IMG/VR virus record: IMGVR_UViG_3300009159_008968
Span: 1 to 64,000 of that record
Strand: one strand, 5' to 3'
Length of the DNA stretch: 64,000 bases
Source: a virus
Position numbers and translations under genes: made by a program. A model generated the notes under the pieces. The model was not told the origin of the DNA, did not search any database, and saw only the letters and a program-made list of their open reading frames with translations. This document shows positions 19,487 to 21,655 of this stretch, one piece after another (the stretch's first letter is position 1; every line of letters starts with the position of its first letter).

Positions 19487-19515
19487 AAACCCCGAACCTT
19501 TTGGATCCGGGGTTT
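19487..19515 (-). terminator. Terminator of the giant RNA locus
   Basis: GC-rich stem AAACCCCG(..)/CGGGGTTT at 19487-19515, followed on the minus strand by a T-rich tract. It ends leftward transcription of the two tandem RNAs before the HD gene. Confidence 0.8.
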
Positions 19516-20411
19516 AAATTTTTTAATAAAATGGCTGAGATTATACCATTTTGAGGTAGCCTTTGAGATCATTATCCTTTTCGAGGTTCTCTCTTTTATC
19601 CACGGACCTTTCAGTCAACGTATCCACCAGTCTCAGTCTTTAGACTCCTCTCGGAATCTTGACCAACATTCTCGTCAGAGCTGTTCTGCAACCTAGTAAC
19701 ACCAGATAGGATGGCCGTCCCACCACGATGCTTTGAGTCACAAAGTGAAACAGATCTTGCGAACCTGCCTCACACTCAGTTGTCATTGCTGACCTGAGCT
19801 TTAGAGACCTTTTGCTCTTGACGCTAGGAGTCTTGGGCTGTATCTTTAAATTTTTCATTTTTTAAGATGACATAATCCACGAATTTATGAAGGATGTGCT
19901 CCCAGAGTAGCTCTGTTCCTTTTGAGAACAAAATACTACACACCCCTCTGTCAGCTTTGCGGTGCCAACGACCAGATGAAACTAACTCCCACAACTTAAT
20001 TTGTGTTACCAAATTACTTTATAGGTCTTAGCCAACCTTGCTGGTCAAAGCACTTCCCCTTCGCATGAGGTCGCACTTTATAGGTTTCATACATTTCTGC
20101 ATTACGCCTAACTCTGTTATTTCTTTCAATTGGTTGCCCAATTAAATCGTCTAACAGAAAAAACCTTGAGATGTTTCTATTGTACCTCTCGATACTCAAC
20201 TGCACATTCGTTTATGCAATGCTACCTACCGACTTGCCCAGCCATCAATAGCGAACTCTCATTGTTTGGATGTCCTCCCCAACTTCAGGAAGGCGGATCT
20301 TGCGGATGAGTTTTACCCCAAAGGATCATGTGCAAGATTCCTTTTATACTCCGTCACCGGAGCTTATCTTATGGATGCCAAACCACCCAATATTTTTAAT
20401 CAAAGAACGAT
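19516..20411 (-). ncRNA. Giant structured RNA B (about 0.9 kb)
   Basis: No plausible protein gene: the only open frames are 60-72 codons, lack family character and conflict with strand and structure. Base composition is visibly richer in G and C than the flanking genes. Many stems can be read, for example CTCCG-GTGA-CGGAG (GNRA loop) at 20349-20362. The 3' half is homologous to RNA A in the same order: 19801-19824 (22 of 24 identical), 19672-19689 (17 of 18), 19628-19637 (10 of 10) and 19537-19549 (12 of 13). A boxA-like element starts it and an intrinsic terminator ends it. It resembles the giant phage RNAs GOLLD and ROOL in size, tRNA linkage and structure, but I could not match it to either. 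Confidence 0.75.
20400..20411 (-). promoter_or_regulatory. boxA-like element before RNA B
   Basis: ATCGTTCTTTGA on the minus strand, the same 12-mer as at 21351-21362 and 21556-21567. The core GTTCTTTGA is the rRNA antitermination boxA sequence recognised by NusB/NusE. It starts 4 nt after the tRNA-like element, as boxA follows spacer tRNAs in rRNA operons. Confidence 0.6.
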
Positions 20412-20414
20412 TTT

Positions 20415-20486
20415 GTTGACTTTCCGGATTCGAACCGGTTAAACCCACACTCTTCTCGTTGTGGTATTTATTTCGCCATAAGTCAA
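20415..20486 (-). tRNA. tRNA-like element between the two giant RNAs (probably non-decoding)
   Basis: On the minus strand a perfect seven-pair acceptor stem (TTGACTT 20486-20480 with AAGTCAA 20422-20416), position 8-9 AT, a T-arm CCGG-TTCGAAT-CCGG with a canonical T-loop, and total length 72. Against a normal tRNA: the D-loop lacks GG, the fifth T-stem pair is A.A, the anticodon hairpin (CCACA/TGTGG) has a 10-nt loop with no uridine at position 33 and competes with the D-stem, and CCA is not encoded. It is better called tRNA-like; it may direct RNase P/RNase Z processing between RNA A and RNA B. Confidence 0.55.
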
Positions 20487-21375
20487 ATTTAATTTTGATA
20501 GGTTGAGATTACACCATCTCGTGAGGAGACTTTAAGAAGCAGTACGGAATTTCACCTTAACCTCTATATCCACGATTGCTCGTATCCCTCAGTCTCAGTT
20601 AATTTCATCTTACAAGTTTAACCCTATAAAACTTAGTTAACCAATCTTTATCGTCAGAGTTGTTCTGCCTTATCAACCACAATCAAACTCGGAGGAGTTA
20701 AAACATGGAAATTCTTAGTTTTAAGACAAGACAAAGAATGCACCTTTGCACATTCTCCCAGATTAGCATAGTTAGTTACCTAACTTGCTACCGAGAATTA
20801 GAGACCTTTTACTCTTAACGCCATTCAGCATTTATATCGCTTACCATTTTCAGGCTATTCGGCTTATTTATTTGCAAAGCGACAAATACGAATTTATATC
20901 AGATACACTGATGGTAGTGGCTCATTTAAGAATACCACACATCTGATTTGTCAGAATCGATCAAAATCCTGACTGCTATATAAGACACGAATAAGAGTAA
21001 TCCTAAACGACCTTACACAACTGGAATAAAACAAAGTAGTGATTAGCAACTTTATTTTAACTCAAGATATTTCAATCCTGAGCAATCGTAATAGTAATAA
21101 AACGATTTTCCTAGAAGTTCAACTATTGCCATTTCTGACTCAATCCCCTGTTCGCCCAGTTCGGATGTAATAACACAATCAATTAAGATTATGCAGTACG
21201 TTGCTTCCTTGCTTAGATGTCTTGTTTTCACAAGCGAGTACCGTTGTTCATTTTCCGGTATCCCATTTATTCCCCATTGCTGGGGGTTTATCTATCACAG
21301 ATCATGTTACCATGTCTGAAGAGTCTAAGCACTCTTTAATTTCTTATAATTCAAAGAACGATTTCCTTTTAATTG
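20487..21375 (-). ncRNA. Giant structured RNA A (about 0.9 kb)
   Basis: Non-coding region of similar size to RNA B, read leftward from the promoter at 21382-21411 (expected transcript start near 21375). Readable hairpins include CATG-GTAA-CATG (21303-21314) and CCCCA-GCAA-TGGGG (21272-21285), both with GNRA loops. The 3' half shares ordered blocks with RNA B: 20798-20821, 20651-20668, 20590-20599 and 20505-20517, at a spacing of 960-997 nt, so the pair arose by tandem duplication and diverged strongly. I found no 16S or 23S rRNA core motif in it. It ends directly at the tRNA-like element. Confidence 0.75.
21351..21362 (-). promoter_or_regulatory. boxA-like element at the start of RNA A
   Basis: Minus-strand ATCGTTCTTTGA, about 15-25 nt after the expected transcript start from the proximal promoter. 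Confidence 0.6.
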
Positions 21376-21381
21376 GGACTG

Positions 21382-21411
21382 CAAATATAAATGATTTTTT
21401 TTAATTTGCAA
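21382..21411 (-). promoter_or_regulatory. Host-type promoter P1 (proximal) of the giant RNA locus
   Basis: Minus strand TTG (21411-21409), exactly 19 nt, TATATTTG (21389-21382). This is a perfect Bacteroidetes-type promoter. Confidence 0.8.
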
Positions 21412-21469
21412 CAATTGTTAATAACTTTATAATTTTTATTTTCAATTGTTTTTTCCCGTTTTGGAGTTG

Positions 21470-21499
21470 CAAATATAGAAAGGTTTTTTCTAATTCCAA
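21470..21499 (-). promoter_or_regulatory. Host-type promoter P2 of the giant RNA locus
   Basis: Minus strand TTG (21499-21497), 19 nt, TATATTTG (21477-21470). The second of three tandem promoters. Confidence 0.75.
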
Positions 21500-21555
21500 G
21501 AATTGTTAATAACTTTTGTTTTTTGTTAATTACAGTCCTAAACTCCAATGCCGAT

Positions 21556-21567
21556 TCAAAGAACGAT
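21556..21567 (-). promoter_or_regulatory. Upstream boxA-like element after promoter P3
   Basis: Third copy of ATCGTTCTTTGA on the minus strand, about 17-28 nt downstream of the P3 -7 box, at the same relative position as the boxA after P1. Confidence 0.55.
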
Positions 21568-21583
21568 TATCAAATCAACACTG

Positions 21584-21615
21584 CAAATATAAAAACAATT
21601 ATTCTTATATTCCAA
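21584..21615 (-). promoter_or_regulatory. Host-type promoter P3 (distal) of the giant RNA locus
   Basis: Minus strand TTG (21615-21613), 21 nt, TATATTTG (21591-21584). Lies just downstream of the stop (leftward view: upstream region) of the glycosyltransferase gene ending at 21656. Confidence 0.7.
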
Positions 21616-21655
21616 ATGTTTTTTTTAAAAAAATTATAAAATACAGATAATCAAT

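Follow-up and report, generated by a model that had tools for sequence, protein, structure and literature searches.

Two diverged GOLLD RNAs encoded in tandem by a phage and arranged like a bacterial rRNA operon

Positions 19,487 to 21,620 of the viral record IMGVR_UViG_3300009159_008968, studied here as a stretch of 64,000 nucleotides (positions 1 to 64,000 of the record, referred to as the window), raise the question of which large RNAs a phage encodes twice in a row, and what their rRNA-operon-like layout may mean. A first-pass annotation, made from the letters alone, had described the region as richer in G+C than its surroundings, lacking credible protein genes, carrying three GNRA-capped hairpins, and consisting of diverged tandem copies. 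These observations were reproduced: the GC content is 0.35–0.42 compared to approximately 0.25–0.29 around the region, and blocks shared by the two units (A and B) recur at offsets of 997, 979, 962, and 968 nt with 86–90% identity. All three hairpins (20349–20362, 21272–21285, and 21303–21314) are present. In a related phage, described below, the hairpin at 21272–21285 reads CCCG-GCAA-CGGG instead of CCCCA-GCAA-TGGGG, and the loop of the hairpin at 21303–21314 reads GCAA instead of GTAA, the GNRA type being retained in both cases. The minus-strand open reading frames are not conserved as proteins, since two out of three gain stop codons in the relative, while the frame at 20014–20205, which is open there too, has 8/4/8 changes at the three codon positions, as opposed to 28/16/142 in the neighboring glycosyltransferase gene serving as control. 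Translated frames in the region were ruled out by the stop codons of the relative together with this codon-position pattern.

Comparison with the Rfam models identified both units as GOLLD. At the curated threshold, the sole match in the whole window was the 3' domain of unit B (RF02032; 178.2 bits versus a cut-off of 150, E 1.9e-48), and at a permissive threshold, the 3' domain of unit A matched RF02032 over the full model with 69.2 bits, i.e., below the cut-off of 150 (E 2.8e-17). The match of unit B likewise spans the full model. GOLLD measures about 800 nt, its 5' domain being the less conserved part; that of unit B could be aligned with the GOLLD 5' domains of five other loci (L223, L231, L233, L261, and L282). 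For the 5' domain of unit A, the alignment to other GOLLD 5' domains was partial and the profile match weak; it shares with them the GATAAAC-hairpin-AATAAA motif. The annotation had left the choice between a divergent RNA of the GOLLD/ROOL kind and a new class: membership of GOLLD held, and a new RNA class was ruled out because both units match RF02032. The models for ROOL, OLE, group I/II introns, and rRNA, which the annotation had named in its proposed checks, gave no match in 19487–21620, which rules out an rRNA or intron identity. GOLLD itself is already known as a giant RNA that builds hollow RNA cages. Its solved cage is a 14-mer and a homo-oligomer, as determined by cryo-EM (PMC12286853), whereas the window encodes two diverged tandem copies, each preceded by boxA; tandem copies are not mentioned in the cryo-EM paper.

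The elements of the locus are compiled in Table 1. The boxA-like sequence ATCGTTCTTTGA was found at 20400–20411, 21351–21362, and 21556–21567, in each case on the minus strand, and none of the shuffled sequences reached three occurrences. The leader contains three promoters of the Bacteroidota type (TTG-N18-22-TAnnTTTGC; shuffle mean 0.0015), with boxA following the first and the third of them. From boxA to the GOLLD 3' end, the distance amounts to 860 nt for unit A and 877 nt for unit B. The only other terminator-like site on the minus strand (20758–20733) lies within GOLLD A and overlaps a GOLLD helix. The order proposed by the first-pass annotation, namely promoters, boxA, RNA A, tRNA-like element, boxA, RNA B, and terminator, stood.

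Table 1. Elements of the tandem GOLLD locus in the window, listed in minus-strand order.
Element	Position	Strand	Remarks
Promoter P1, TTG-N22-TATATTTGC (Bacteroidota type)	21583..21615	-	-7 region retained in the relative (L012)
boxA 1 (GTTCTTTGA), downstream of P1	21556..21564	-	Conserved in the relative
Promoter P2, TTG-N20-TATATTTGC	21469..21499	-	
Promoter P3, TTG-N19-22-TATATTTGC	21381..21414	-	
boxA 2, directly 5' of GOLLD A	21351..21359	-	
GOLLD A 5' domain, strongly diverged	20948..21348	-	Compensatory changes
GOLLD A 3' domain	20500..20947	-	RF02032 match, compensatory changes
tRNA-like element between the copies	20416..20486	-	7-bp acceptor TTGACTT/AAGTCAA, T-arm-like TTCGAAT loop
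boxA 3, directly 5' of GOLLD B	20400..20408	-	
GOLLD B 5' domain	19949..20399	-	Alignment with phage GOLLDs, compensatory pairs
GOLLD B 3' domain	19532..19948	-	RF02032
Intrinsic terminator	19487..19515	-	Strong; 12-bp stem and T run

The spacer was accepted as a tRNA by neither ARAGORN nor the Rfam tRNA model, so that a real tRNA between the units was ruled out by two programs. A related tRNA-like fold with a canonical-looking D-loop was found at the corresponding place in the relative. Since no program calls a tRNA and the covariation is weak (3 double changes versus 1.35 expected, p = 0.12), a role of the spacer in processing is a guess. The odds are about even that it represents the relic of a phage tRNA having no present role, with A and B either being cut by an ordinary RNase or remaining one fused RNA. 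Phage GOLLDs are often accompanied by tRNAs, either adjacent or internal (PMC12286853; L276 and L319), and the spacer, besides going unrecognized as a tRNA, is the fastest-changing part of the locus, with 66% identity between window and relative; on the other hand, the predicted folds of both phages still include helices resembling an acceptor and a T arm, albeit with this weak covariation.

To what extent both copies are maintained can be judged from the relative, which was recovered from two separate metagenomes (records of 222 kb and 79 kb, differing at 5 positions over 12.5 kb) and is approximately 85% identical to the window at the DNA level. It carries the same GOLLD pair (176.7 and 86.5 bits against RF02032), flanked by glycosyltransferase and HD-phosphohydrolase genes as in the window, and the tandem order is conserved, as are the positions of boxA and the promoters of GOLLD A. 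For the covariation analysis suggested in the first-pass annotation, substitutions between window and relative were mapped onto the minimum-free-energy structure predicted for each part, and randomly moved substitutions served as control. Double changes that keep a base pair numbered 11 in the 3' domain of unit A (2.1 expected; none of 2000 permutations reached 11), 6 in its 5' domain (1.65 expected), 12 in the 5' domain of unit B (0.95 expected), and 2 in its 3' domain (0.16 expected), whereas the glycosyltransferase gene, representing the coding control, showed 1 versus 3.6 expected. Compensatory changes thus far exceed the permutations in A and B and not in the coding control; therefore, both GOLLD copies are under selection for structure. 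This result bears on the possibility that unit A is a decaying duplicate, unit B being the only working GOLLD and the tandem order a passing accident. Unit A indeed scores only 69 bits, its 3' domain changes faster than that of B (82.5% versus 94.7% identity between window and relative), and tandem GOLLD pairs are rare. However, its base pairs are kept by the compensatory changes described, and it has retained promoters and a boxA of its own in the relative, so that decay of unit A appears quite improbable.

The rarity of the arrangement was evaluated by searching RF02032 over the whole virus records reached by a GOLLD DNA pattern or by the neighboring genes. Approximately 80 other GOLLD-bearing virus records contained one copy each, and two copies were found only in the window phage and its relative, with the reservation that a very low-scoring diverged second copy, or one located past a contig end, could escape these counts. 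A pattern joining the GOLLD end to boxA retrieved, as a further tandem of the window type, only the known relative, besides 8 other records without GOLLD. The nucleotide search of isolated phage genomes gave no match, and the contig fragments reached via DnaB (one close, 14 at 27–58% identity) contained no GOLLD. TPP riboswitches (L304, L307, L308, and L312) were also hit by the GOLLD DNA pattern, as chance matches on their reverse strand, which calls for caution when searching by pattern.

A separate tandem pair of GOLLDs (184.8 and 159.9 bits) was detected on L319, a contig of 372 kb assigned to a Crocinitomicaceae MAG. Each copy contains a tRNA, a further one separates the copies, and the 10-kb stretch around the pair encodes 21 tRNAs. 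Judging from the translations, the contig presumably encodes ParC/ParE-, RNase R-, and RecJ-like proteins, for which reason it may be misbinned in that MAG; it may represent a giant phage or a misbinned megaplasmid. Both loci have two GOLLD copies with a tRNA, or in the window a tRNA-like element, between them, but L319 differs by the tRNA in the linker of each copy, by its tRNA array, and by the absence of boxA at the GOLLD pair. The L319 tandem appears to be an independent duplication.

The boxA leader is not special to the window but recurs generally at the GOLLD loci of this group of phages. Among 39 non-redundant GOLLD loci, GTTCTTTGA or GTTCTTTAA was located at the 5' edge in 21, at a distance of 787–912 nt from the 3' end, compared to a mean of 0.11 and a maximum of 1 in dinucleotide shuffles and to 0, 0, 0, 2, and 0 in five control stretches. 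The remaining 18 lacked both sequences at the expected place, one of them having CGCTCTTTAAG instead, and the abundant ncRNA region of phage ICP1 contained no boxA. Given these loci and L319, GOLLD in general can do without boxA. The loci L263 and L265 were found to carry CGCTCTTTAAG, an E. coli-like boxA, approximately 900 nt from the 3' end, which suggests that the boxA type of the phage follows that of the host.

Leaders of the group also share features upstream of boxA. The Bacteroidota-type -7 element TAnnTTTG occurs within 75 nt upstream of boxA, mostly at 30–48 nt, in 35 out of 40 distinct leaders. Within the interval between promoter and boxA, most GOLLD leaders of the group contain a boxB-like hairpin of 6 bp (e.g., ATCGGA-aacg-TCCGAT, TCAGGA-aaag-TCCTGA, and GTTCTC-aacg-GAGAAC). 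Across twelve distinct leader hairpins, each of the six pairs shows at least one two-sided change, as counted on hand-registered 16-mers, MAFFT having misaligned one hairpin. No such hairpin was found 5' of boxA at either copy in the window, nor in the relative.

The same boxA sequences are found in bacterial rRNA leaders: GTTCTTTGA or GTTCTTTAA was present upstream of the 16S rRNA gene in 11 of the 15 sampled Bacteroidota genomes with a full leader. GTTCTTTGA is also similar to the boxA of other phyla. A host from the Bacteroidota is suggested only by the types of promoter and boxA, and the assignment is best regarded as putative.

The combination of promoter and boxA was not confined to GOLLD. 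In 34 phage records, it occurred 75 times, compared to 16 times for the reversed pattern. Sixteen stretches with non-GOLLD or doubled sites were inspected, forming a non-random sample because they were picked for their promoter-like appearance. Sites leading into tRNA arrays were found in L398, L401, L402, L405, L407, L408, L409, L410, and L411, and in L404 (535–942, record G083), a tmRNA gene follows straight after promoter and boxA, adjoining the GOLLD of that phage in opposite orientation. The leaders in L399, L400, L403, L406, and L412 precede protein genes or unknown transcripts, the genes following boxA in L399 and L400 being apparent protein genes, and in L413, promoter and boxA form a second promoter before a GOLLD. 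Within the boxA-led tRNA array of L407, positions 76–137 match the freshwater-1 RNA family. Of the five copies of GTTCTTTGA found in the 135 kb of the window phage itself, three belong to the GOLLD locus and another falls within a gene. The fifth (record position 104851–104859) lies directly between a promoter and a tRNA-Leu/Met/Arg cluster and is kept in the relative (G004:194209). On account of its presence at tRNA arrays, at the tmRNA gene, and at the phage's own tRNA cluster, the element is a class-wide marker of stable-RNA operons.

These occurrences also bear on another explanation, according to which GTTCTTTGA would be a structural part of GOLLD or a promoter-proximal DNA element unrelated to antitermination, the likeness to rRNA operons being coincidental. 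The near-fixed distance of the element to the GOLLD 3' end would be in line with this. However, tRNA arrays and a tmRNA gene without GOLLD sequence begin with this element too, it is present in 16S rRNA leaders, and it persists where an upstream tRNA (L234 and L260) or, in unit B, the tRNA-like spacer takes the place of the promoter. We therefore consider a purely structural or DNA-level role decidedly unlikely, and the best reading is that rRNA-type antitermination of the host drives stable-RNA operons of these phages.

The resemblance of the locus to a bacterial rRNA operon is well supported. In rrn operons, boxB and boxA follow the promoter and recur before the 23S rRNA gene (PMC10250234). 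The antitermination factors are recruited there by boxA, which is both required and sufficient for this step; their complex increases processivity and, according to a proposal, assists the folding of RNA (PMC10250234). Shared with this operon is the order of promoter, boxA, long structured RNA, tRNA or tRNA-like spacer, boxA, and second RNA. Most of the group's GOLLD leaders show the hairpin-then-boxA succession of rRNA leaders, but the window's own leader is without a clear boxB. The RNAs are rRNA in one case and GOLLD in the other, and neither boxC nor a leader-trailer helix is among the elements identified. A second parallel is provided by CRISPR arrays, for which a boxA placed ahead of the array increases the expression of that long untranslated RNA approximately tenfold (Stringer et al., cited in PMC7862264). 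A host Nus-type boxA carries the polymerase through long untranslated RNA there as well, with the difference that CRISPR RNA is cellular, whereas the window contains a phage stable-RNA operon. The logic of both systems fits GOLLD, a structured RNA of 800 nt that is needed in bulk, the solved cage comprising 14 chains (PMC12286853). The nut sites of phage lambda likewise are part of phage transcription units using boxA and host Nus factors. Lambda antitermination requires the phage protein N, and its nut sites have boxA followed by boxB; the order in the GOLLD leaders is rrn-like, unlike lambda.

Taken together, we infer, with a probability of about three in four, that a phage with a putative Bacteroidota host expresses two diverged functional GOLLDs from one operon built on the plan of the host rRNA operon. 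Transcription would start at strong host promoters and proceed through the boxA leader, GOLLD A, the tRNA-like spacer, boxA, and GOLLD B to the terminator. The NusB/S10 antitermination complex of the host would assemble on boxA of the growing transcript, so that RNA polymerase could traverse an untranslated and highly structured stretch of approximately 2 kb without being stopped by Rho; the complex may also aid long-range folding of GOLLD during transcription. High expression of the units and their protection from termination, as supposed in the first-pass annotation, would be consistent with this model. The spacer may help to cut the precursor into two RNAs, and GOLLD A and B, once separate, would assemble into RNA cages. 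A more far-reaching version, in which host rRNA antitermination controls the stable-RNA operons of phages (GOLLD, tRNA arrays, and tmRNA) as a class and the paralogous GOLLDs of this clade form a hetero-oligomeric cage, is unlikely on present evidence.

Within the open-access literature, no paper treating both GOLLD and boxA was found, nor any description of tandem, diverged, and apparently co-transcribed GOLLDs or of phage operons for GOLLD, tRNA, and tmRNA that start with an rRNA-type leader of the host. That GOLLD has its leader in common with tRNA arrays and tmRNA suggests that it is handled by phages as an rRNA-like stable RNA. It offers a direct handle on the production of so long a structured RNA and suggests tests tying GOLLD to the translation machinery, while the natural pair of diverged GOLLDs represents a test case for RNA cages composed of two different subunits.
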